Shown here piece after piece: positions 26,299 to 46,757 of a DNA stretch of 64,000 bases. The notes below the pieces were generated by a model. That model did no database searches. It saw only the letters and a program-made list of their open reading frames with translations, and was not told the DNA's origin. Every line of letters begins with the position of its first letter. Within the stretch, counting starts at the first letter, position 1. Where the stretch lies: contig NZ_CP095482.1 in the NCBI RefSeq assembly GCF_023028225.1, positions 1,116,001 through 1,180,000 on the forward strand, given 5' to 3'. A program made the translations under genes and the position numbers. The DNA is from Halorientalis litorea. GTDB lineage: Archaea > Halobacteriota > Halobacteria > Halobacteriales > Haloarculaceae.

Positions 26299-27612
26299 TT
26301 AGTTGCCGACGTCCATCGCGCGGTCGACGACGTCCTCACCGTAGAGGTCAGCGAGGTCGTCGTGCTGGTCGGGACGGTTCTCGTACACGTCCTGGAACAG
26401 CGCGACGGGCGTCATGAGGGCCTGATAGGTTGCTTCGTCCCACATACGGTCGCTACTGACCTCGACCTGCACGCCGTCGATTTCGATGGTTGCCGCGCGG
26501 GTCATCGCGATGGCACCCTGCCCGGCCTCCTTGGCCGCCTCGAACTCCTCCATGGAGTCGACGATGTCGTCCATGCTCGGGACGTAGTCGACCAAGTCCA
26601 GCAGTTCGTCGGCGAGGTCCTCCTCGGACTCGACGAATATTTCGTCGCTGCCGACTTCGAGTTCGTAGCCGCCGTCCTCCGCTTCGAGTTCGATGCGGTC
26701 GCCGCTGTAGACTTCGACGCCGTCCTGGCTGTCGAGTTCGACCTCGCGGCCGTCGGCGTCGATGAGCCAGTAACCCGCTTCCGGCGGGAGCGGACTCTTG
26801 TTGGCTTCGACGACCTGACCCGGCGTCAGCGACCAGATGCCGAGCATCCCCATCGCGTTGTTGGCCGTGATGCGGTCGTGGTAGCCCTCGACGTCGCGGA
26901 TGTCGTCGTACGGGCCGTCAACGGCGATACAGCCGGCCGCGCTCGCGGCGCGCGAGGTATTGTGGCGCAGTTCCTTCCACTCGGGGAGGCCGCCGGTCGG
27001 CGTGATGGCGCGCATGTCCTTCGTGTAGTCGACCTCGCCGTCGACCAGCAGGAACAGGCGTTCGAGGTTGTTGTCGGCCTTGCCCATCTCCTCGCGGAGT
27101 TTGCCCATGGCCAGTTCGGCGGACCCGGATTCGATGATGACGGACATGGCGAGACTGCCCTCTTCGAGGCCGTGTTCGTTCTCGACGATGGTGATGAACT
27201 CGTCGGCCTTCTTCCAGTCGTCGATGTCACCGACCTCGGGGATGACGAACCCGTCGATGTTCTCGACGGCTCCGTTCTCCGGGTCCGCGATTTCGAGCAT
27301 GTGCTGGAAGCCCTTGTAGCGGGTCTCGGGGCTGTCGCGGTGCCAGACGACGCGGGGGTGAATCTCGCCGGGGAACTCGTCACCGCTTTCGGCGACGACT
27401 TCGGCGATGTTTTCGGCACCCTCGTCGCGCATGTTCGGTGCCGTCGCGTCCTCGTTGTCCGGCACCCACACGTCCGGTGCTTCCATGCCGCGGAGTTCGA
27501 TGGACTTCCGCAGCATCTCCGCGGTGTCGTCCTTCTCGCTGACGGCTGTCGGCGTCGTGAAGAACGTCCGCACGAACTTTCGGTCGTGGAGACGCTCGTC
27601 GATTGCAGTCAT
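26299..27612 (-). CDS. aceB: Malate synthase (haloarchaeal type)
   Basis: A 437-residue enzyme condensing glyoxylate with acetyl-CoA to malate, the second step of the glyoxylate shunt. It belongs to the short halophilic isoform, which resembles the HpcH/citrate-lyase-like barrel: VWVPDNEDATAPNMRDEG near residue 50, HPRVVWHRDSPETRYKGF near 85, and FVIPEVGDIDDW near 125 carry the acidic metal ligands and arginines. The start MTAIDERLHD at 27612 has its own TATA (TTTAATAAT, minus strand, about 27640-27650), so it can be transcribed separately from aceA 166 bp upstream. Confidence 0.94.
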   Translation of the reverse strand: MTAIDERLHDRKFVRTFFTTPTAVSEKDDTAEMLRKSIELRGMEAPDVWVPDNEDATAPNMRDEGAENIAEVVAESGDEFPGEIHPRVVWHRDSPETRYKGFQHMLEIADPENGAVENIDGFVIPEVGDIDDWKKADEFITIVENEHGLEEGSLAMSVIIESGSAELAMGKLREEMGKADNNLERLFLLVDGEVDYTKDMRAITPTGGLPEWKELRHNTSRAASAAGCIAVDGPYDDIRDVEGYHDRITANNAMGMLGIWSLTPGQVVEANKSPLPPEAGYWLIDADGREVELDSQDGVEVYSGDRIELEAEDGGYELEVGSDEIFVESEEDLADELLDLVDYVPSMDDIVDSMEEFEAAKEAGQGAIAMTRAATIEIDGVQVEVSSDRMWDEATYQALMTPVALFQDVYENRPDQHDDLADLYGEDVVDRAMDVGN

Positions 27613-27637
27613 TGTAGTCACTCGTACGGATTACTCC

Positions 27638-27778: not shown

Positions 27779-28846
27779 TCAGTCGTCGTTGTCCGACTTG
27801 ATGACCGTCTCGCCTTCCTCGGAGAAGCCGGCCGACTCTTCCTGGCGCTGCTGGGCCTCGGGGTCGAATTCGGCTTCGATCTCTTGGAACCGCGGGACGA
27901 ACGAGAGCTCGTGGTGGCTCTCGGTCTCGTGACCCAGGTAGCGGTCTTCGAGGTCCCACTGCGCCTGCTCGTCGTTCTCCGCGATGTTCTTCATGTCCTC
28001 GTAGACGGCGTGGGCACCCGAGTGCAGGGCGTACAGCGTGATGAACTGGTACTTGTAGCCCAGGTCGCCGAGTTCCTGGAACGTGAGCGGGTCCTCTTCC
28101 TCGGACCACGCGAAGGAACTGGAGTAGTTGAACGCGAGGTCGATTTCGGGGTGGGTCTCGTGAAGCGTCTCGGCGTAGTTGACGGCGTCCTCGCGGGACG
28201 GGTCGGGCATCTCGGGCCAGACCAGGTCGACGCCGGCGTCCGCGTAGATGCGGCCGCGTTCGAGGTGTTCCTCCCAGTCGCCGTTGGCCGAGCCGTAGGC
28301 GTCGGTCCGGGCGATGATGACGGTGTCCTCGTCCTGCTTGGCGTCGACGGCCGCGCTGAAGCGGGCCTCTGCCTCCTCGCGGGAGACGATCTTCTTGCCG
28401 GCGATGTGACCACAGCGCTTGGGCGACGTCTGGTCCTCGATGTGGACCGCGGCGACGCCAGCCTTCTCGTACTCGCGGACGGCACGGCGGACGTTGTGGA
28501 CGCCACCGTAGCCGGTGTCACAGTCGGCGATGACCGGCAGTTCGGTCGCTTCGACGATGCGCTTTGCGTTCTCGACCATCTCGGTCATCGTGACCATCTC
28601 GAGGTCCGGGAAGCCGAACTGGCCCAGCACCGTCGAGTACCCCGACATGTACGCGGCGTCGAGACCCGCCATCTCGGCGAGACGGGCGTCGAGCGCGTGG
28701 TAGAGACCGGGTGCGAACACGAAGTCCTGCGTGTTCAGCATCTCGCGCAGTTCGCGCGCTTTCTTGTTGTCGACATCGCGAATCATCGTGTCTGTACTCC
28801 GAACGTTGCTCGCAACAGGGTCTTCCCCGTCTGAGTCGTGTCCCAT
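27779..28846 (-). CDS. aceA: Isocitrate lyase
   Basis: A 355-residue enzyme cleaving isocitrate into succinate and glyoxylate, the first step of the glyoxylate bypass used for growth on acetate or fatty acids. The catalytic loop [12 protein letters not shown] holds Cys145; the metal-binding DTGYGG motif is at residue ~110 and IARTDAYG at ~190. Length is normal for the shorter archaeal form. It is immediately upstream of aceB on the same strand, giving a complete shunt. A weak TATA-like GATAAACC lies at about 28878-28886. Confidence 0.95.
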
Positions 28847-30101: not shown

Positions 30102-32816
30102 CTACAAGAACAGTCCTTCGAGGAGTTTGCGTTCCGCGGCGCGTAAGTGCTGGCTGAACGTCGACTGTGCGATTCCGAGTTCGGCGGCGACGCTGTCCGC
30201 GTCCGTGCTTCGCGGCTGGTCGAAGTAGCCCGCGTGAAACGCCATCTGGAGAGTTTCACGCTGCCGGTCGGTCAGTCGTGCGTCGGTAGTTCCGACGGCC
30301 CGCTGATTCGGTTGCTGGTCGCTAGCGTCGTCGTACTTGCCCACCAGTTCGATGTCGCCGAGGGCATCCGTGACAGCGTCGGCGTACTCCCGGACCACGG
30401 TGTCAGAGGGTAACCGCACAGTCGCGGTGAAACTCTCCGAGTCGGACCGGGCCGTTACCTGCTCGAGTGTCCCGCCGTGTCTGACCATCTGCCGGAGCGG
30501 CGACGCTGTCTCCAGTGTTACGACACACGTCAGTCCGTCCGTATCGTCACGGAGCGTAGATACACTCGGTCTGTTCTTGACTTGTCGCGTTATTCGGTCG
30601 CGGTCGTGGCTGGCATCGAGTTCGACCCGCGTGAAAACTGCACACGTGCCGTCGCCCCAGCGTGAGACATCCGTCACCCTGAGCGGGGCGTCGATGTCCG
30701 TCGTCAGGCGAGACAACGGTGAGTCTGCATCGATGCGGAAGGTGAGGGTCGTCGCACCGCCCGACAGGAGTGCGTTCCGCTGTCGAATCGCACCGATAGC
30801 GTGCCCGATAGTCACGCCGAGTTCCGCGAGTGCGTCGACTGCATCGTCGGAGAGCCCACCCGGACGGTCGAGGTGTACCTCTATCGCACCGAAGATTGTG
30901 CCGTCCTGAACGACCGGAACTGCCACGATAGTGTTGGTCCCCTGTTCGAGCGCTCGGTCGCGCCACCACACGCCGGAATCGACTGTCACGAGGTCTGTCA
31001 CGGACACGGTCGACCGCGCATCGTACGCTTCTCTCGCCGGAAGCGTCGGCGTCGTTTCGACGCGTCGAGAGCTTTCGGTCTCCGAACTCGATTGTTTTAT
31101 TCGTGATAGGTACTCGTCGAGGCTGCCGGCGGAGGCCCGACAGACGGTCCGAGTACTCGGTACGTCGACGCTTGCGACCCACGCACCTGTTACTGGGCCG
31201 GTACGAAGCAGACGGCGGCAGACTGCCGTTTCGATTTCCCCGCGGGTGTCCGCGCTCGTCACGGCCACGTTGAGGGAGCGGATGAGCCGGTTGATCCGGT
31301 CGAGCCGCAACAGCCGCTCGTTCTGCCGTTCCAGTTGTCGGTCGCGGTCTTTGAGGTGTCGAGTGCGGGCCACCTGCTCGAGTGCCTGTCGCGTACTCGC
31401 GGCCCACGTCTGTGCGAGGCTCTGCTTGGTGGCCGGGAGTGGTTCCCCGTCTGTCGTCGCCGCGAGGAACACGCCTCGGTGGCCGAGCGGGCAAATCAAC
31501 CAGTCGTCGAACGCCTCGTCGAGCCACTCCTCAGACGTGCCGTCCCCTCGGTAGCTGTCGGCCGTCAAGCGTCCCGTCCGGTCGGCGAACGCCGTCCAGA
31601 CTGGGCCCGAACCGCCGGAGCGTGTCGGGAGGTCCGGGTCTGTGTCGGGAGCTGTCGTCTCGCTTGCCATCGGTACGAGGTCGCCGGTACCCGTGTCCCT
31701 GACAAACACTGCCGCGTACGGCAAGTCCAGTTCGTCTGTCGCGGTCGTGACTGCGTGTGTCGTGACAGCCTCGTCCGTCTCGGCGGTCAGTAGCTCTCGC
31801 GTCGCGTGGTGGAGCACTTGGAGGTACTGTTCGCGTCTGTACCGGCCCGTCACGTCGTGGTAGTGTTCGATCCGTCCGCCAGCGTACAGTCCAGTCTCGA
31901 CTGGCGCGCTCCAGTATTCGAGCCACCGCTCGGCCCGTGTTCCGTCTTCGGGAACGTGGACGGTTGCGTCGATTTCGCTCCGCCGATTCGCAAGTCCCTC
32001 TCGTATCAGCGACACGAGCGACGCGTCCTCGGCTTCGATACTACCGAACTGTTCCGCCGCGACTGCCGCGTACTCGCGTCCACGAGCGTCCGCCCGGTCG
32101 AGTCCGAGTAACGTCTCCGTCGCCGTGTTCGCGAACACGACCGACCCGTCGGCGTCGATAACGACTGTCGCCTCCTTCGCACTGTCGAGTACGTCCGCTG
32201 TGAGTGATTCGTATCGTCGCTCGCTGGCCCGTTCAGCCGCCGTCCGCTGCAGACGCTCGACCGCAACGCGGAAATCATCGTCCGGGAGGCCAGTCAGCAG
32301 TTCCTCGACAGCCGTCTGTTTGGCTTCGAGCCGAGCGGTGAGCGAGTGGTACTCCTCGCTCGTTTCGAGTTCCGTCGTACTCTTGACCGCTTCGAGTGTG
32401 TCCTGTCGCTCGATCAGTGAGAACAGTTCCTGAACCTTCTCGTCGTAGTCTGCGCGGGTCAACATCCGGTCGACCGTCTCGTGTAACACGTCGGCGTCGA
32501 CCGGCTTCTCCAAGTACGCGTCGAACCCCATCTGGACGATGTCGAGGCCGGGCGTAACCGCAGAAACCATCACCACCCGTGGGTCGACCGACGCGTCCCT
32601 GACCGCCTCGAGGACCTCACTCCCGGAGAGTCCGGGCATCATCCGGTCTAGCAACACGACGTCGACCGTCTCGTCCAGTCGTTCGAGGGCTTGGCTCCCG
32701 TCGTACGCTATTTCGACCACGTACGATTCTTCGAGCCACTCTGCGTACAGGTCGGCCAGGTTCCGGTCGTCCTCGACGACGAGTATCGAAGGCGAATCCA
32801 GCTGCGTTGCACCCAT
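30102..32816 (-). CDS. Response regulator with REC-HalX-PAS-GAF-GAF and Bat-type HTH output
   Basis: A 904-residue transcription regulator. Order: receiver domain (~8-125; phospho-acceptor Asp57 in VVLLDRMMPG, Lys104 in YLEKPVDADV), HalX helical domain (~125-195), PAS (~210-325), two GAF regions (~330-480 and ~510-670), the Bat-associated domain (~680-840) and a C-terminal HTH_10 (LTDRQRETLQMAFHAGYFDQ...QSTFSQHLRAAERKLLEG). The central and C-terminal parts match the bacterio-opsin activator Bat, here preceded by a receiver, so output should be phosphorylation-controlled. It starts 1 bp after the stop of the giant kinase gene, its evident partner. Confidence 0.88.
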   Translation of the reverse strand: MGATQLDSPSILVVEDDRNLADLYAEWLEESYVVEIAYDGSQALERLDETVDVVLLDRMMPGLSGSEVLEAVRDASVDPRVVMVSAVTPGLDIVQMGFDAYLEKPVDADVLHETVDRMLTRADYDEKVQELFSLIERQDTLEAVKSTTELETSEEYHSLTARLEAKQTAVEELLTGLPDDDFRVAVERLQRTAAERASERRYESLTADVLDSAKEATVVIDADGSVVFANTATETLLGLDRADARGREYAAVAAEQFGSIEAEDASLVSLIREGLANRRSEIDATVHVPEDGTRAERWLEYWSAPVETGLYAGGRIEHYHDVTGRYRREQYLQVLHHATRELLTAETDEAVTTHAVTTATDELDLPYAAVFVRDTGTGDLVPMASETTAPDTDPDLPTRSGGSGPVWTAFADRTGRLTADSYRGDGTSEEWLDEAFDDWLICPLGHRGVFLAATTDGEPLPATKQSLAQTWAASTRQALEQVARTRHLKDRDRQLERQNERLLRLDRINRLIRSLNVAVTSADTRGEIETAVCRRLLRTGPVTGAWVASVDVPSTRTVCRASAGSLDEYLSRIKQSSSETESSRRVETTPTLPAREAYDARSTVSVTDLVTVDSGVWWRDRALEQGTNTIVAVPVVQDGTIFGAIEVHLDRPGGLSDDAVDALAELGVTIGHAIGAIRQRNALLSGGATTLTFRIDADSPLSRLTTDIDAPLRVTDVSRWGDGTCAVFTRVELDASHDRDRITRQVKNRPSVSTLRDDTDGLTCVVTLETASPLRQMVRHGGTLEQVTARSDSESFTATVRLPSDTVVREYADAVTDALGDIELVGKYDDASDQQPNQRAVGTTDARLTDRQRETLQMAFHAGYFDQPRSTDADSVAAELGIAQSTFSQHLRAAERKLLEGLFL

Positions 32817-32817
32817 A

Positions 32818-35800
32818 CTACCGTCCCGGTACCCCCTTATCCGAGCGTGCCGTTTCGGTCGGCAGACGCACGCACACCTCGGTCCCGTCCGGTCCGGTGT
32901 CGACCGATACGTCGCCGCCGGCCTGTCTCACGATTGTCCGGGCCATCCACAGGCCCAACCCCTGTCCGTGCCGGAGTGACGTCTCTTCACCCTTCTCGAG
33001 TACCTCGGCTTCCATCTCCGGCATCCCCGGACCGTCGTCGCTCACGCTGAGCTCGACCCACCCACCCTCCGGCGCGGCGAGTTCGATCTCAACTGTCGAG
33101 TGGTTCGACGCATCTATCCCGTTCTCGACCAGCTCACGGACCGCCTCGAAGGTCTCTACCGGAACTTGGGCCGACTCGCCATCCGGCACGTCGGTCACAA
33201 CCGTCGCATCGGGGTACGTGTCTTTGACCGAGTGTTCCACGTCCAGTAGCAGTGATTCGTACCCCGTCGTCGCCTGCTGTTTCTCCTGTTTCCCGAGTAC
33301 CTGCCGTATTTCCGATATCTTGTTGCTCATCGCGTCCCACTTGTCGAGCACCGTCTCTATCGTCTCGAACTGCTCGGCCCGGGCGTCCGCGTCCGCCGTC
33401 TCGGACATGAGCTGTGTCCAGCCGCGAATCTTGGTCAGGTCGTTTCGCATATTGTGCCGTAGTACCCGCTGCATGACCTCTAGATGCTGTCTGTACTGCT
33501 GTCGCGCGGTGACGTCACGACCCTCTGTGACGAGGAGGGAGACGGTGCCGTCCTCGTCGGTCACGGGTTTTATCGAGAAGTCTATCGTCGCGAGGCCGTT
33601 GGCACCGCGTGCCTCTGTCTCGTACCGGACGAACTCGCCGTTCGCAGCCCGGGCGATGGCGTCTCGGACGCCGTTTCTGGCCGTCTCGGAGTGTCCCCAC
33701 CACGGAGCCTCCGGGAGCGGCTTCCCAATGATACTGTCGCGTTCGACGCCTGCGAACTCGAGGGTCGCGTCGTTAGCTTCGGCGAGTGTGCCATCCGGTT
33801 TCAAGAGGCCCGTGAACTGGAACGTCTGGTTGAAGATGCTCTCGAACCGCCGGGCGCGCTCCGTGCGTTCGGTCACGTTCCGGAGGTAGACGAGTATCCC
33901 GTCGATAGCCTCGTCGTCGAGCATGTTTCGATAGTGGCCTTCGACGTTGAACCACCCGCCGTCCGGGGACGCGAGACGGCATTCGGCAGTGACGTCTTTC
34001 GCGCCATCGACACAGTCGTAGAACATCTTCAGTGCGTGTTCTCGCCCGTCCGGGTGGAGGTAGTCGAAGAGGTTCTCGCCGACGAGGTCGTCGGGGTCGT
34101 AGTCAAAGACCCGTTCGGCCGAGCCACTGGCGTACGCGACAGTGCCGTCCGCTTCGAGGATGGTCACTACGTCGTCGGACTCCTCGACGAACCGCTCGGT
34201 TCGGCGTCGCTGTCGGCGTCGGTCTGTCATGTCGCGGACAATCATCGCGTACCCACGGAACTCGCCGTCGTCGGCTTCGAGCGGCGCGAACTGAGTGTCA
34301 CCGTAGAACGTCGTCCCGTCCACACGAGCGCACTGCCCCTCGTGGGCACTCTCGCCGGCGATACGCGCCTGCTGGAGCAACCGTTCCGGCAGTCCCGACT
34401 CCCGGTCACTGTCGGGGTACAGTTCGGCCATCGCCATCCCGACGGCCGCCTCGGCGTCGTAACCGAACGTGTTCTCGGCACTGTCGTCCCACGTCTGGAT
34501 GGTCCCGTCCTCGCCGATGGCGAGAAACACGTACTCGTCGACACTTTCTGTCAGCAGACGGAACCGCTCGCGCTCGGCTCTCAGTTCCCGCTCGCGTCGT
34601 ACCTCCTCTGTCACGTCCTGTGCCAGCAGCAATCCGTGGGTCTCGGTCGACTGGCCGTCACTGTAGTCGACCGGAACGATCTGAATCCGGACTGTCCGGT
34701 CGTCGAGTTGGACCCGGCGGTCCGTGCGCTCGCCATCGAGGGCTGCTCGGGAGCGTGCCACGAGCTCGTCTCGGGCGTCGACATCGGGGAAGACCGTCCC
34801 CACAGCCATCCCGGAAATGTCCGACGCGTCGCGGTCGAACGCCGACAGGAGTTCGCCTGCGGCCAAGTCGTATTCGAGGTCCGTGTCGAACGTGAGAACG
34901 GCACCGTTCGGGATGTTCTCTGCGAGGCGCCGGTAGCGTCGTTCGTTTCGCTCGCGCTGTCGTTCCGCGTTCTTCCGGTCGGTGATATCCATCCCGGTGG
35001 CGAGGACCCGAGTCAAGTTCCCCTCGTCGTCGTACGTCGGGACGGCTCGCGTCCCGAGCCAGCGAACGGTGCCGTCGCCGTCGGTCGTCCGGAACTCATC
35101 GACCCACGACTCGCCGGTCTCGGTTATCCGCTCTAAGTTCTCCCGGACCCGGGCCCGGTCGTCCGGGTGGACCGTCTCTACGAATCCCTCGACGGATTCG
35201 ACATCCCGGCCGACGATGTCGACGAGTGTCTCGTTCCACGTTACTGTGTCCGTCTCCACGTCCCACTCTGCGAGGCCGGTGTTCGTCCCCGAGAGCGTCA
35301 GTTCGAGTCGTTGGCGCTGTTCTCGCAGGTCGTCGTGGGTCTCTCGTCGGTCCATCTCGTAGCCGATCCACTGTCCGACCAGACTGATGAACGACCGCTC
35401 GAACTCGTCGAAGGGGTCCGCACGGGGTTCGGTCGCGGCGAAGCACAGTGTCCCGTACAGGTCGCCACTGGCGGCGACATCAGCCCCGAGGTACGTCTCT
35501 AGCTCGAACGTCTCGTAGGCTGGGTCGTCCGCCCAACCGTCCTCGGTGGCGTGTATGAGTGCCATGGGCTCGTCTCGCTCTATCGTCTCTCGGCAGTACG
35601 ACTGTGAGAGCGGGACCGATTCGTCCGGCTGGAGGCGGTCGTGTGACCCGAAGCTGTCGACGATGGTCTGTGTGCCGGCCGCCGGTTCGGCGTCCGTCTC
35701 GATACGCGTCAAGAAGCCGTAGGGGAGGTCGAGATGGTCACTGACGGCGTCCAGAAGCATCGAAATCTTTTCCTCGAACGCCGTCTCGGGGTCGGTCGTG

Positions 35801-38640
35801 ACCTCGTAGACACGCTCTATGAGGTCGATTCTCGCCTTGTTCTGTCGTTCGCGCTGCTTGCGCTCCGAGATGTCCACGAAAAGGGCGTTCGTTCCGGTCG
35901 TCTCGTCTCGTCGCGGGACCGCACGCAGAAGCGTATCCACCTGTTCGCCGTTCGCGCCCAGGAGCCGTCGCTCGGCCACCTCGAACTCGCCCGTGAGTGC
36001 GTCCTCGTACCCGCCGCCGGTGAGTTTGGACGTGGACAGGGCGGTGTAGAAGTGTTCGAGCGGTTCTCCCACTATCTCTCCGCGGTCGTATCCGAGTCGG
36101 GTCCGGAACTGCTCGTTGCACGACGCTACGACCGCCTCTCCGTCGACTTCCCGTGTTTGGACGAACAGTAGCGGTCCGTGGCTCAGGAACTGTTGTAGCC
36201 ACTGGCTTCGCTCTCGGCGTTCGGTGACGTCCTGACTGATGCCGACGAAGTTCTGAACGGTCCCCTCCTCATCGGTGACCGGCGTGAGCGAGAGCCGCGT
36301 CCAGTACTCCGTTCCGTCTTTCCGGTAGTTACGGAGTTCGAGTGACACCGGCTCTTCGGCGTCGACGGCCTCGCGGAGCCGCGCTTCCTTCGCTGGGTCT
36401 GTGTTCGGTCCTTGGAGGAACCGCGGGTTGCGGCCGAGTACCTCCTCGCTGGTGTAGCCGGTCACGCGCTCGAAGCCGTCGTTGACGTAGACCAGTGGAT
36501 TGTCGGCCCGTGTCGGGTCGGTAATCTGGATGCCGACGGTAGCCTCGTTCATGGCCTGTTCTTTGAGTTCGAGTTCACGTTCCCGGGTCTGGCGTTCGGT
36601 TTCGTCGCGGACGGTACAGACGAGTCGCCCGTCCTCGACCATCGTCAGGGAGAGTTCGGCGGGAAACGTCGACCCGTCGGGTCGGCTCCCCGTCACCATC
36701 CCACGCCAGTAGCCGTCCGCCTCGAGCGTCGGGAACGCCTCCGCTTGAAGCCGTTCGACCTCGTCCTCGTCGTACAGTTCGCGCCACGAGTGTCCGAGCA
36801 GTTGTTGTTTGTCCTCGAAACCGTACATGTCCACGTGGGACTGGTCGATGAAAACGTACTCCCCGTCCTCGAGCACCGCGACGCCGTCCCTCGCCGATTC
36901 GATGGCCTGCTGGAACGACTCCAACTGTTGTCGCCGCTCGTTCCGGGCGGTAATGTCCCGGAGTACCCCGGCCGTCCCACGGAACTCGTCGTTATCGATC
37001 AGTGCAAGCTGGTTCTCGACGACCAGCCGGCTACCGTCGACCGTTTCGAGGGTGAACTCCGCAGTCGTCGACCGGTCGTCTGTGGCGAGCAGGTCCGCTA
37101 TCTGGTTGCGGATTCGTTCGACGTCCGAATCGTCCATCGTGGCCGACGGTCGCTTCCCGATTATCTCGCTGTCGTACCCGAACTCGCGTTTCGCCGCGTC
37201 GTTGACGAAAGTGAACCTGCCTTCGGTATCGAGCGCGTACACCGGGTCGTCGACGGCCTCGAGAATCGCTTCGTATCGCTCCAGTTCCTCGAACCGGTGG
37301 CGGCGTTCGATTTCTGTACCGACCCACTGTGCGACGAGTTTGGCGAACTCTCGTTCCCCCGGACTGAACGGCTCCGGTCGCGGTTTCGCCATCGAGAAGT
37401 TCACCGTTCCGTACGTCCTGCCGTCGACGACGACGGGCACTCCGATGTATGCACGGACGTTCTCCGCCGCCGGGTGACTCTCGTAGTCGGTATCCGCGGC
37501 ATCGGCGAACGCGAGCGTCTCGGTCGTCTCGTTGGCGAGCGTCGCGTGACACATCGTCTCTTGGAGTTCGTACACGGCACCGGCCCGGTGTGTCCCGGTC
37601 GCGTCGACGACGGCCTCGACCTCGTAGTCGTCCTCGTCTACGTGTGAGAGGATTCCCGTATCGAGGCCGAGATGGTCACACCCCAGTGACAGCAGTCGCT
37701 CGATTGTTTCGTCGAACGCCTCGGCAGCCACGGTGAGTTCGTTCAGTCGACGGAGTAAACCTGCGTCAAGCTTTGGCTCCGCCGCGGTTTGTCGTGGGTC
37801 CGTCTGTGTGGTGCGGGATAGCTCCTGCACTGTCGTGCGGACGTAGCTCGACCCGTCGACTTCCACCGTTGTACTCGTGAGTTCGACCGTCACGTCACTC
37901 TCGTCTGCACGTTCGAGGGTCGTTCTGAGTGGGTCCGGCGTCCCGGCGACGCTGGTGTCGAGATACTCTCGAACAGCCCCGGTTGCCGGTTCGTGAGCGA
38001 TATCGGCTACGTTTCTCCCCAGTAGCGTTTCGCGGTCGTACCCGGTCATCTCACGGGCCGCGGGACTGACCGCGACGATGACTCCGTCGTCGTCGCTGAG
38101 GAACGCGGCGTCGTCCGCCTCCTCGAACAACGCCCGGGCGGCGTGGTCTACCGACTGGTGCCCGTCGATACGAGCTAGTGCCGTTTCGAGGTGTGCTGCG
38201 ATGGCTTCGGTGACGGTTACCCCTTCGTCGTCTAGCTCTGCCGGGTCCGTGACACCGAGGTGTAACGTTCGGTTGCAGCCGGCGGGAACGAAGACTTCTG
38301 CCTCAGTGCTTCCCGGAGGGTCGGTGTCGACTGTCGCTTCGGGCGTCGCGTCGGCCGAGAGTTCGCCCCCGCGTTCGCCGGACTGCTGGATGACCGACTC
38401 CGGTATTCGGTCCGGCGCAGTAACCGGATTGTCCGAACTCCGGCCCGACGAGGCGAGGGTGGACACCGTGTCCGTATTCGAGTCGTAGTCACAGACGCTC
38501 ACGGCGGGTTGGTCGAACGCTGTCTCGGCCAACTCGACTGCACGAGTGACGGCGGCCGACACCGTCTCGGCCTGGCCGATCTCGGCCGACAGAAAGAGCA
38601 GCGAGGCAGAACTTGCAGAAGAGGGGTGAGTGTTTACCAT
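32818..38640 (-). CDS. Giant multi-PAS/GAF sensor histidine kinase with a Cys-less LOV-like domain
   Basis: A soluble 1,940-residue kinase with no transmembrane segment. Approximate order: N-terminal GAF-like (15-160), PAS1 (165-280), GAF (290-448), PAS2 (453-570), PAS3 (573-690), PAS4 LOV-like (693-810), PAS5 (813-930), GAF (935-1100), PAS6 (1110-1225), PAS7 (1234-1350), PAS8 (1358-1475), PAS9 (1483-1595), PAS10 (1597-1715), kinase core (1716-1930). Phospho-acceptor His1729 is in VLRHNMRNDL; N box RELVENGID (Asn1840), G1 SDDGPGM and G2 GQGLGLWMA are intact. PAS4 contains GRNPRFLQGPNTDPA (from 736): a LOV signature with Pro739 in place of the photoactive Cys. It is first in an operon with the Bat-type response regulator. 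The ATG at 38640 lies ~26 nt after a TATA box (leaderless). Confidence 0.9.
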   Translation of the reverse strand: MVNTHPSSASSASLLFLSAEIGQAETVSAAVTRAVELAETAFDQPAVSVCDYDSNTDTVSTLASSGRSSDNPVTAPDRIPESVIQQSGERGGELSADATPEATVDTDPPGSTEAEVFVPAGCNRTLHLGVTDPAELDDEGVTVTEAIAAHLETALARIDGHQSVDHAARALFEEADDAAFLSDDDGVIVAVSPAAREMTGYDRETLLGRNVADIAHEPATGAVREYLDTSVAGTPDPLRTTLERADESDVTVELTSTTVEVDGSSYVRTTVQELSRTTQTDPRQTAAEPKLDAGLLRRLNELTVAAEAFDETIERLLSLGCDHLGLDTGILSHVDEDDYEVEAVVDATGTHRAGAVYELQETMCHATLANETTETLAFADAADTDYESHPAAENVRAYIGVPVVVDGRTYGTVNFSMAKPRPEPFSPGEREFAKLVAQWVGTEIERRHRFEELERYEAILEAVDDPVYALDTEGRFTFVNDAAKREFGYDSEIIGKRPSATMDDSDVERIRNQIADLLATDDRSTTAEFTLETVDGSRLVVENQLALIDNDEFRGTAGVLRDITARNERRQQLESFQQAIESARDGVAVLEDGEYVFIDQSHVDMYGFEDKQQLLGHSWRELYDEDEVERLQAEAFPTLEADGYWRGMVTGSRPDGSTFPAELSLTMVEDGRLVCTVRDETERQTRERELELKEQAMNEATVGIQITDPTRADNPLVYVNDGFERVTGYTSEEVLGRNPRFLQGPNTDPAKEARLREAVDAEEPVSLELRNYRKDGTEYWTRLSLTPVTDEEGTVQNFVGISQDVTERRERSQWLQQFLSHGPLLFVQTREVDGEAVVASCNEQFRTRLGYDRGEIVGEPLEHFYTALSTSKLTGGGYEDALTGEFEVAERRLLGANGEQVDTLLRAVPRRDETTGTNALFVDISERKQRERQNKARIDLIERVYEVTTDPETAFEEKISMLLDAVSDHLDLPYGFLTRIETDAEPAAGTQTIVDSFGSHDRLQPDESVPLSQSYCRETIERDEPMALIHATEDGWADDPAYETFELETYLGADVAASGDLYGTLCFAATEPRADPFDEFERSFISLVGQWIGYEMDRRETHDDLREQRQRLELTLSGTNTGLAEWDVETDTVTWNETLVDIVGRDVESVEGFVETVHPDDRARVRENLERITETGESWVDEFRTTDGDGTVRWLGTRAVPTYDDEGNLTRVLATGMDITDRKNAERQRERNERRYRRLAENIPNGAVLTFDTDLEYDLAAGELLSAFDRDASDISGMAVGTVFPDVDARDELVARSRAALDGERTDRRVQLDDRTVRIQIVPVDYSDGQSTETHGLLLAQDVTEEVRRERELRAERERFRLLTESVDEYVFLAIGEDGTIQTWDDSAENTFGYDAEAAVGMAMAELYPDSDRESGLPERLLQQARIAGESAHEGQCARVDGTTFYGDTQFAPLEADDGEFRGYAMIVRDMTDRRRQRRRTERFVEESDDVVTILEADGTVAYASGSAERVFDYDPDDLVGENLFDYLHPDGREHALKMFYDCVDGAKDVTAECRLASPDGGWFNVEGHYRNMLDDEAIDGILVYLRNVTERTERARRFESIFNQTFQFTGLLKPDGTLAEANDATLEFAGVERDSIIGKPLPEAPWWGHSETARNGVRDAIARAANGEFVRYETEARGANGLATIDFSIKPVTDEDGTVSLLVTEGRDVTARQQYRQHLEVMQRVLRHNMRNDLTKIRGWTQLMSETADADARAEQFETIETVLDKWDAMSNKISEIRQVLGKQEKQQATTGYESLLLDVEHSVKDTYPDATVVTDVPDGESAQVPVETFEAVRELVENGIDASNHSTVEIELAAPEGGWVELSVSDDGPGMPEMEAEVLEKGEETSLRHGQGLGLWMARTIVRQAGGDVSVDTGPDGTEVCVRLPTETARSDKGVPGR

Positions 38641-38982
38641 GCAATACTATATGATCATGTAGTAATAAATCCCCCGTCACCAGTTTTTATTATTGATTCC
38701 AGTGGCCCGGCCGCTGAGTGGCTTGAATCCAGCTTCGAGTGCTTTCAAACCGGGTTTTTTACGTATACCTTCCCCGGAGCGGGCGAACTCCGCCCCTAAT
38801 CTCACTTCTGAAACTTCCTTATCGGCGGCCAGAGCCGTATCTTTTTCAGTACGCTTGATACATTTCCACCGCTTCGAACGACTACCCGAGACTACTGACA
38901 ACGAGTAATGTGTCACAGATTCGGGCCGCGGTGGCGGCCCACACGCTCACGTGTTTGTACGAGATTATGGTTTGCGCGGAGA
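38641..38982. other. AT-richer intergenic region between kinase operon and tRNA-Thr
   Basis: Base composition is clearly lower in G+C than the flanking genes. Besides the kinase promoter, a 79-codon minus-strand ORF (38677-38916) is open; its Lys-rich, low-GC3 composition is unlike neighbours and no homologue was recognised. No other gene is seen. Confidence 0.45.
38646..38670 (-). promoter_or_regulatory. Promoter and 18-bp near-palindromic operator of the kinase operon
   Basis: On the minus strand a TATA box (ATTTATTA, 38663-38670) lies about 26 nt before the ATG at 38640. Between them, 38646-38663 (plus strand ACTATATGATCATGTAGT) is a palindrome matching its own reverse complement at 16 of 18 positions, with core ATGATCAT. 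A dimeric regulator bound here would block transcription start. Confidence 0.6.
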
Positions 38983-39053
38983 GCCTAGGCCGGAATTTGA
39001 ATCCGGGGTCTCGTCCTTACCAAGGACGCGCTTTACCGCTAAGCTACCCAGGC
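38983..39053 (-). tRNA. tRNA-Thr (anticodon GGT)
   Basis: A 71-nt cloverleaf on the minus strand: acceptor GCCTGGG/CCTAGGC with one G-T pair, D arm GCTT...AAGC, anticodon stem CGTCC/GGACG with loop TTGGTAA (anticodon GGT), variable loop AGACC, T arm CCGGA-TTCAAAT-TCCGG. CCA is not encoded and no intron is present. It borders the mobile-element remnant on the right. Confidence 0.95.
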
Positions 39054-39269
39054 ACTCAGGGTGCGTACACCCCGCTTTTCCGCCTTCTGCGCTCGAATTT
39101 ACTACACAGCCGTATAAGAATGTGGTGAAAGCCACCGACTGTGCCGTACCGTGACGTGCCAAAGCAGTAATTGAAACCCTTCCGAAACTCGCCTCCTCGA
39201 TGAAGCGAACCCCAATCGAAGCGTAGATTTAGTTGTCCATCAGGCAATACTGAGAGCGACGAAGCTCGG
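39054..39269. other. Intergenic sequence upstream of tRNA-Thr
   Basis: No gene is seen. A minus-strand TATA-like TTCTTATACG at about 39110-39120 may drive the tRNA. The lower G+C here continues into the element remnant. Confidence 0.4.
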
Positions 39270-40055
39270 TTAGAAATCCGAAAGTGAAGCTACTTCGCCA
39301 CCCTGTTTGTTTTCTTCAATCTGGACATCCGTATCCTCTACGGGGTTATGTGACACCTCGTACCCCTCCTCGGTTTCTCGAATATCCGAGACAGAGTAGA
39401 ACTGAATCGGTTTCTCTTGCTTCGTCGTGACGGGGAAGTCGTAGTTATCAGCCTGATATTTAAACTCCTTCCCCTCGGGCAGACGCTCCTCAACGAACTC
39501 TTTGTGGTCGTCTAACCGTTGTTTGACGACTTCACGCGAGTATTCTGGAATATCTTCGACTCGTTGCTTGAACAACTGCACGAATTCCTCATCCAGTTCA
39601 TATCCGACGGAGTTTCGCCCCGCGACCATCGCGGCGAACGAGGTCGTCCCTGTTCCCCAGAACGGGTCAAGCACAGTATCTCCATAGACAGAATACATAT
39701 TGATGAGTCGATACGGAATCTCAAATGGGTACGCCGCAGAACGCTCTCTTAATTCGCTTTGTCCAAGAGCTTGAAGCACCCCTTTAATCTCCATCCAAAC
39801 GTCGGAAAACCACTGGTTCCTTTCTTCGCAAAAGTACGCCGAATTGTAGCGTCGTTCCGACCCCGGCTCGAAGGTTCGACTATCCTTCCCGTTACGGAAG
39901 ACGAGGATATACTCGTGTTCAAGCGTTACGTAGGCGTTGGGCGGGAGCATACCTGAACCCATAAACTTGGCTCCCGAATTGACGGGTTTGCGCCACAGAA
40001 GTTCAGGTAGAGGCTCGAATCCGAGGTCTTCGAAAGCGTTGATAATTCGAGACAT
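39270..40055 (-). pseudogene. N-terminally truncated DNA (N4-cytosine/N6-adenine) methyltransferase
   Basis: The 261-codon frame matches the second part of a beta-type DNA methyltransferase: [33 protein letters not shown], and the SAM-binding motif I region [19 protein letters not shown] followed by VGYELDEEF. In this motif order the catalytic TSPPY (motif IV) precedes this region, and it is absent. An in-frame TAA lies only four codons upstream of the ATG at 40055, and the integrase fragment ends 94 bp further upstream, so the first ~90 residues are deleted rather than frameshifted. Base composition is lower in G+C than neighbours. It is probably inactive, although the ORF itself is intact. 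Confidence 0.8.
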
Positions 40056-46034: not shown

Positions 46035-46757
46035 CTACGTGCCGTCGAAACAGGAGTCGTAGTCGCCCGTCTCACGGACCGACAACACCTCGCGGGTCGC
46101 GTCGGCGTCGAACCGGAGCGGGCGCCGCCACCACGGCCCCTTCCCCGAATCGGCCGAGAGTCCGGTGACGAGTCGGTTCGGGTCACTCCCGGCGGTTCGG
46201 GTACTCAGCGGGACGGCGGTGTCGTACAGGGCCGACCCGCCGGGGTCGCCGAGCACGAGGACGCGGGCGTCGAACTGCTCGCGGTTGACGTGAGCGTTGT
46301 TCGCGAACGGCGCGCGGTCCGCCGGGGGGAGGTCCCGGTACGCCTCGCCGGTGAGGGCGTCGCGAGCGAGGCGGAAGTGACCGACGAGGAACGCCCCCCA
46401 CTCCGGGGCGGCCCAGTCGGGGCGGTCGGTGCCCGTCGAGAGCGTGGCGTAGAAAAGGAGGTAGTCGCCAGCCGCCAACTCCGAGAGTGGCCCGGCCTTC
46501 ACGCCGTGTTCGTCGCCGTAGGTGTACCGCTCACAGTGAGGGTACTCGGGGAACTCCGGGTCGAGGTGGACCGGCGTGTCCGCGTAGCCGTCGGGCAGGT
46601 CCGTGTCGAGGGAGAGGTCGGCGTACGTCGGAACGTCCCCGCTCGTCGGTTCGGACTCGGGGATGGGGATGTACTCGAAGGAGCCGTCGGGGTAGAGCGG
46701 CCCGCGGACGCCCGGTTCGTTGGTGTTGGCGGCGACGTTGATGGCGATGCTCCGCAT
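46035..46757 (-). CDS. Conserved protein, Nmad3-like
   Basis: A 240-residue protein whose N terminus IAINVAANTNEPGVRGPLYPDGSFEYIPIPE resembles, in pattern, the Nmad3 (nucleotide modification associated) family found in archaea and phages. A conserved His/Tyr-rich region (EYPHCERYTYGDEHG) follows and could form an active site. The link to nucleotide modification rests on my memory of that family and should be treated as tentative. No methylase or restriction gene is adjacent. Confidence 0.5.
   Translation of the reverse strand: MRSIAINVAANTNEPGVRGPLYPDGSFEYIPIPESEPTSGDVPTYADLSLDTDLPDGYADTPVHLDPEFPEYPHCERYTYGDEHGVKAGPLSELAAGDYLLFYATLSTGTDRPDWAAPEWGAFLVGHFRLARDALTGEAYRDLPPADRAPFANNAHVNREQFDARVLVLGDPGGSALYDTAVPLSTRTAGSDPNRLVTGLSADSGKGPWWRRPLRFDADATREVLSVRETGDYDSCFDGT

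Follow-up and report, generated by a model that had tools for sequence, protein, structure and literature searches.

A Cys-less LOV-type domain with proline at the adduct position in a giant sensor histidine kinase of Halorientalis litorea

The window analysed here, 64,000 nucleotides of contig NZ_CP095482.1 of the haloarchaeon Halorientalis litorea (assembly GCF_023028225.1, positions 1,116,001 to 1,180,000), encodes a giant cytoplasmic sensor histidine kinase and, adjoining it, a response regulator; one of the sensor domains of the kinase, at residues ~690–815, is the subject of this analysis. Pfam finds PAS_9 over nine stretches of the kinase (E 5e-101), together with GAF domains and a C-terminal HATPase_c domain. 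Across positions 36090–36560 the plus strand is broken by stops; the coding strand is the minus strand. The kinase and receiver motifs are intact, and a two-component set is present, with His1729 and HATPase_c in the kinase and the receiver Asp57, BAT and HTH_10 in the regulator, between which phosphotransfer presumably occurs. The original prediction, made from the sequence alone, suggested that the domain might be a sensor driving a Bat-type regulator; the adjoining gene does encode a protein of REC-HalX-PAS-GAF-BAT-HTH_10 organisation, and the pairing is conserved in relatives, in which the kinase again precedes the regulator (L108, L058, L060, L056, L061 and others; the gene overlaps listed for these pairs derive from stop-to-stop ends of open reading frames).

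Residues ~690–815 form a LOV-type PAS domain, as had been proposed. The best 60 phmmer matches among solved structures are nearly all LOV domains, with YtvA LOV (2pr5, E 4.8e-34; 48% identity in Foldseek), CagFbFP, MrLOV, Brucella LOV-HK and the phototropins as the best of them (E 4.8e-34 and weaker). Modelling and comparison with LOV structures, suggested as a check on the prediction, gives a LOV-type fold: the AlphaFold2 model has a mean predicted local distance difference test score (pLDDT) of 93.9 and superimposes on LOV structure 9vf7 with a template modelling score (TM-score) of 0.96 and a root-mean-square deviation of 0.8 Å. The segments NPLVYVNDGFERVTGY, GRNPRFLQGPNTDPA and RNYRKDG, cited in the prediction for their likeness to LOV domains, are present in the minus-strand product, and the PAS fold and the GXNCRFLQ context of canonical LOV domains are there in all but the Cys. 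A chance or artefactual origin of the match is ruled out by its E value (4.8e-34) and by a reversed control of the GxNPRFLQ pattern, which gave one match only.

Two other kinds of ligand-binding PAS domain were considered and rejected. A FixL-type heme PAS would carry a heme-ligating His in helix Fα; this residue is absent, as is any other His in the domain. The flavin adenine dinucleotide (FAD)-binding PAS domains of NifL and Aer share the PAS fold and the logic of a flavin-PAS redox sensor, but helix F of the H. litorea domain reads AKEARLREAVDAEE and lacks the Trp in helix Fα that defines them (PMC10468136).

The residue at the position of the LOV adduct cysteine is Pro739, as predicted, and no adduct is possible because the Cys is absent. 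The accompanying claim, that the contacts to flavin mononucleotide are largely kept, is not supported. YtvA residues N61, R63, Q66, R79, N94, T30 and N37 have identical counterparts in N738, R740, Q743, R756, N771, T707 and N714, so that the ribityl/phosphate side of the pocket and one of the two pteridine-contacting Asn residues are retained. The domain thus resembles YtvA LOV (2pr5/2pr6) and YF1 in its fold, its pair of phosphate-contacting Arg residues and N61/Q66/N94, whereas their Cys62, N104 and Q123 are Pro739, Thr781 and Ser802, which removes the adduct Cys, one of the two pteridine Asn residues and the strand Iβ Gln of a canonical LOV domain. (Positions 28, 62, 75, 94, 104 and 123 below follow YtvA.) A charged residue, Glu752, occupies a usually hydrophobic position in helix F.

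The Gln that the prediction saw in the last strand does not have the place of the LOV Gln. The strand aligns without gaps (FVGI-S-QDVT here, FVGI-Q-NDIT in YtvA and YIGI-Q-QDVT in the closest relatives), so that the LOV Gln position is taken by Ser802, with Gln803 one register off; no gap brings Gln803 into line, and it was rejected as the sensor Gln. Codon 802 differs in all three bases from the CAA or CAG of relatives, a change that a one-base deletion combined with a one-base insertion would also explain. A sequencing error at this codon, read in one assembly, is unlikely.

Table 1. Positions of the kinase and regulator genes and of their domains and key residues, numbered within the window
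Feature	Position	Strand	Basis or remark
Giant cytoplasmic sensor histidine kinase, 1940 amino acids	32818..38640	(-)	~10 PAS + 2-3 GAF, then HisKA/HATPase_c
LOV-like PAS domain, Cys-less LOV*, residues 690-815	36196..36573	(-)	phmmer, AlphaFold2, TM-score
Gln705, strand Aβ (YtvA V28, AsLOV2 V416, CagFbFP I52)	36526..36528	(-)	clade signature
Motif GRNPRFLQ, residues 736-743	36412..36435	(-)	
Pro739, codon CCG, at LOV adduct-cysteine position (YtvA C62)	36424..36426	(-)	
Arg756, retained; equivalent of YtvA R79, the second Arg that contacts the phosphate	36373..36375	(-)	
Asn771 (YtvA N94), kept	36328..36330	(-)	
Thr781, replacing flavin-contacting Asn (YtvA N104)	36298..36300	(-)	
Ser802, codon AGT, replacing signalling Gln (YtvA Q123)	36235..36237	(-)	only Ser among 70 Pro-domains
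His1729 in LRHNMRND, presumed phospho-acceptor of kinase	33454..33456	(-)	
HATPase_c catalytic domain, residues 1831-1929, N/G1/G2 boxes	32854..33150	(-)	Pfam
Partner response regulator, 904 amino acids, REC-HalX-PAS-GAF-BAT-HTH_10	30102..32816	(-)	start codon 1 bp past kinase stop
Asp57, presumed phospho-acceptor of regulator receiver domain (LLDRMMP)	32646..32648	(-)	
HTH_10 DNA-binding domain of regulator	30117..30275	(-)	

Among 392 Halobacteriales genomes, 41 contain the GxNPRFLQ pattern; they represent 13 of 95 genera. From a set of 108 distinct LOV-like domains, 70 have Pro at the Cys position; Gln123 is kept in 68 of these, Asn94 likewise in 68 and Asn104 in 50, the domains with S, A, V or T at position 104 coming mainly from the giant-kinase group. 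Ser at position 123 is found in the H. litorea domain only, with one weak outlier carrying Val104/Asn123, and two extra scans (146 genomes of the family and 392 of the order) gave no further Ser123 relatives.

An unrooted tree of the domains, from which columns 62, 104 and 123 were excluded, places the domain in an all-Pro clade of 21 giant-kinase domains (support 97/93). The BAT-LOV* domains, Cys-less LOV domains that lie within BAT regulators, form a separate supported all-Pro clade of 24, and Cys-LOV domains fall between and around the two. The H. litorea domain shares the features of its clade, namely Pro62, Gln28 and a kinase that adjoins a REC-HalX-BAT regulator, and Pro is fixed throughout the 21 members, in answer to the question raised with the prediction of whether it is conserved. 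Unconserved pocket residues, named there as a sign against a flavin sensor, are seen in part: among the clade members position 104 is variously N, S, A, T or V, and several of them carry a charged residue at position 75. The tree separates the giant-kinase and BAT-LOV* clades, yet independent loss of the Cys in each is not claimed, a single common Pro clade not being rejected by the approximately unbiased (AU) test (p-AU 0.198). Cys and Pro may thus have been exchanged once or several times and, the tree being unrooted, in either direction.

Some giant-kinase relatives (L057/L109 on G007:C44, L053, and L136 on G219:C9) carry, further downstream in the same chain as the Pro-LOV* domain, a second LOV domain with GRNCRFLQ and hence a true Cys; in another, L060, the second downstream LOV domain has Arg at the Cys position.

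The Cys-to-Pro LOV* class of haloarchaea is already known. Yee et al. (2015) described ~70 Cys-less LOV domains with Pro among the replacements and tested a haloarchaeal one (PMC4682037), and two Pro-LOV sequences were reported from Lake Diamante in 2025 (PMC12202551). The BAT-LOV* purified by Yee et al. bound flavin modestly and could be reduced chemically, with a change of shape, but was poorly photoreduced, and its P188C variant formed no adduct (PMC4682037). By Y163, W172, P188, Y247 and N252 we identify BAT-LOV* with a group of ~675-residue proteins, among them L093 and L097, that come from one genus. The H. litorea domain is likewise haloarchaeal, has Pro for the adduct Cys within a retained GRNPRFLQ and is tied to a BAT/HTH_10 regulator; BAT-LOV*, however, lies inside the regulator and has N104, Q123, Ser28 and Trp172, whereas the present domain lies in a separate giant kinase and has Thr104, Ser123, Gln28 and Phe. 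The 2015 screen sought domains without the Cys in which G59, N61, R63, F64, L65, Q66, N94, N104 and Q123 are kept with at most one exception (PMC4682037). The H. litorea domain falls outside it because two of the nine residues differ (N104 and Q123), while those clade relatives that have both Asn104 and Gln123 are admitted by it. LOV receptors that lack the active-site Gln are also known, with Ser among the natural replacements, and loss of the Gln is widely tolerated in signalling when the Cys is present (Dietler et al. 2022, PMC9098866); those are presented as blue-light receptors and the tested ones keep the adduct Cys, which the present domain has lost as well. In the literature searched we found no description of a domain that combines the absence of Cys, Asn104 and Gln with Gln28.

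Contig C4 of the same genome encodes a LOV* paralogue that keeps both Gln and Asn, and the genome also has three Cys-LOV domains (L003, L004, L005). This paralogue belongs to a set of closely similar ~1507-residue LOV* kinases encoded with ~903-residue BAT regulators in several haloarchaeal genera, often on plasmids (L111 on contig C4, L112, L113, L114, L119, L127, L142, L157). They share the two-gene layout and the Pro-LOV* domain with the pair described here and differ in keeping N104 and Q123, in having Met28 and in their shorter sensor array. In several of these loci a ~197-residue receiver protein, similar to the first ~160 residues of the regulator, is encoded nearby, and the ~1507-residue kinase and its regulator look like a mobile two-component module.

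We give about an even chance to the interpretation that the domain belongs to a haloarchaeal flavin-redox family and keeps a weakened or altered form of its function. It would be one of the Cys-less Pro-LOV* domains of giant PAS/GAF histidine kinases co-encoded with REC-HalX-PAS-GAF-BAT-HTH_10 regulators, and flavin binding and a redox response may be attributed to that family from the behaviour of BAT-LOV*. The pocket of this copy appears to have drifted further (N104T, Q123S), for which reason weakened or altered flavin binding would be expected, with a signal that is redox rather than light and with Gln705 possibly taking the part of the missing Gln; presumed phosphotransfer to the regulator would then act on putative target genes. 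The LOV match and structural model, the 21-member all-Pro clade, the retention of Q123 and N94 in 68 of 70 Pro-domains each, the conservation of the LOV* domain and the gene pairing all support this assignment. LOV light sensors have been proposed to descend from flavin redox sensors (Yee et al. 2015, PMC4682037). The prediction of a redox or unconventional light sensor is supported on its redox side by the BAT-LOV* literature (PMC4682037), whereas a role in light sensing is unlikely; a functional photoreceptor is less probable for this copy than a redox sensor or a retired domain. Cys with Gln (the genome's own Cys-LOV domains), Pro with Gln (the relatives and the paralogue) and Pro with Ser and Gln28 (this domain) make a series within one family, and partly within one genome, along which the pocket residues needed for redox signalling without the photochemical Cys can be tested one step at a time.

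Several observations weigh against the flavin-redox interpretation. The replacement of N104 by Thr781 and of Q123 by Ser802 costs this copy two of its three polar contacts with the isoalloxazine ring, and D698N and Q802S alter columns that are invariant in all 20 other clade members. The AlphaFold2 models hold no ligand. BAT-LOV* lies elsewhere in the tree, which makes its biochemistry an analogy only, and the tolerance of Gln loss was seen in proteins that retain the Cys (PMC9098866).

These same changes lend an appreciable chance, short of even, to a retired LOV domain that serves as a flavin-free PAS spacer, or as a dimer or relay module, among the ~10 other PAS and GAF modules of the kinase. 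Apart from the weak Val104/Asn123 outlier, the joint loss of Cys, N104 and Q123 is unique among the 70 Pro-domains; the domain departs from 5 of the 48 columns that 18 or more of the 20 other clade members conserve, two of these being clade-invariant, and helix F has its charged Glu752. The function could moreover be covered elsewhere, since the genome has the Gln- and Asn-keeping paralogue and three Cys-LOV domains. The domain is nevertheless conserved as much as its neighbours or more, being 76% identical to that of the same-genus relative G007, the second highest value among 14 modules (with boundaries set by us), compared with 61.5% for the whole protein. Both Arg residues, Asn738, Gln743 and Asn771 are kept, and replacement of the Gln is tolerated in LOV domains. 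Relatives that retain Q123 already vary at position 104, so that N104T alone need not signal decay.

Gln705 offers a further, unlikely, explanation of how a flavin redox sensor might persist here. Position 28 is Gln in 21 of 21 clade members and in none of 87 other domains, where it is T, S, M, V, I, A or Y; the H. litorea domain thus has Gln28/Ser123 where BAT-LOV* has Ser28/Gln123. The sensor Gln may have moved, the clade having gained Gln705 at the flavin-facing site of strand Aβ, beside the position where the Cys was lost; Gln705 of the H. litorea domain would possibly stand in for the Gln of strand Iβ; N5 protonation would then be passed straight to strand Aβ and helix A'. The equivalent site in AsLOV2, V416, lines the flavin pocket, with its Cα 8.2 Å from C4a compared with 7.6 Å for that of Q513 (PMC10751770), and in CagFbFP a Thr introduced at the I52 site keeps the residue of the Gln position beside N5 (PMC8131319). 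V416 is, however, described as touching the ring on its dimethylbenzene side, an argument against direct contact of Gln705 with N5.

An unconventional blue-light sensor, in which flavin photoreduced to the neutral semiquinone drives the kinase and its Bat-type regulator, is improbable. Photoreduced Cys-less LOV proteins can signal, and Trp172 quenches BAT-LOV*, whereas the fast-reducing BAT-III variant has Phe at that site (PMC4682037), as does the H. litorea domain. The genome also has four bacteriorhodopsin-family genes (G000:C1 391789, 626736, 1260247 and 1978118), from which it follows that light matters to the organism. Natural BAT-LOV*, on the other hand, is barely photoreduced and shows no light shift (PMC4682037); the Gln that reads N5 protonation is missing here; and genuine Cys-LOV domains are available in the genome for light sensing. 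A link of the locus to bacteriorhodopsin was rejected, all four genes lying elsewhere and no rhodopsin gene being found within the 64-kb window. One of the four lies in an open frame of 497 amino acids, longer than usual.

That the domain is an ordinary S-box PAS never derived from LOV, with Pro as the usual PAS residue and a superficial likeness, is very improbable: Pro does occupy this position in bacterial LOV-like PAS domains of Balneolales (G(K/E)(T/S)PRILQG) and either Cys or Pro may be the ancestral state, but true LOV domains are the nearest relatives of known structure, LOV features are present in the RFLQ motif, the two Arg residues, Asn738 and Asn771, and the clade is placed among haloarchaeal Cys-LOV domains. 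The Balneolales domains (L068-L070, L072, L073) keep Asn94, Asn104 and Gln123 without Asn61 and Cys62 and are possible relatives for rooting the Cys/Pro change.

Downstream of the regulator lie adjacent genes of the isocitrate-lyase/PEP-mutase and HpcH/HpaI aldolase families (27779-28846 and 26299-27621, both on the minus strand). Upstream of the kinase, a few kilobases apart, are an N6/N4 DNA methylase domain (39270-40055, minus strand) and an Nmad3 (nucleotide-modification-associated) protein (46035-46757, minus strand). The G+C content falls to 0.593 at positions 36001-40000, around the kinase gene's 5' end and the methylase upstream, compared with ~0.66 over most of the window.

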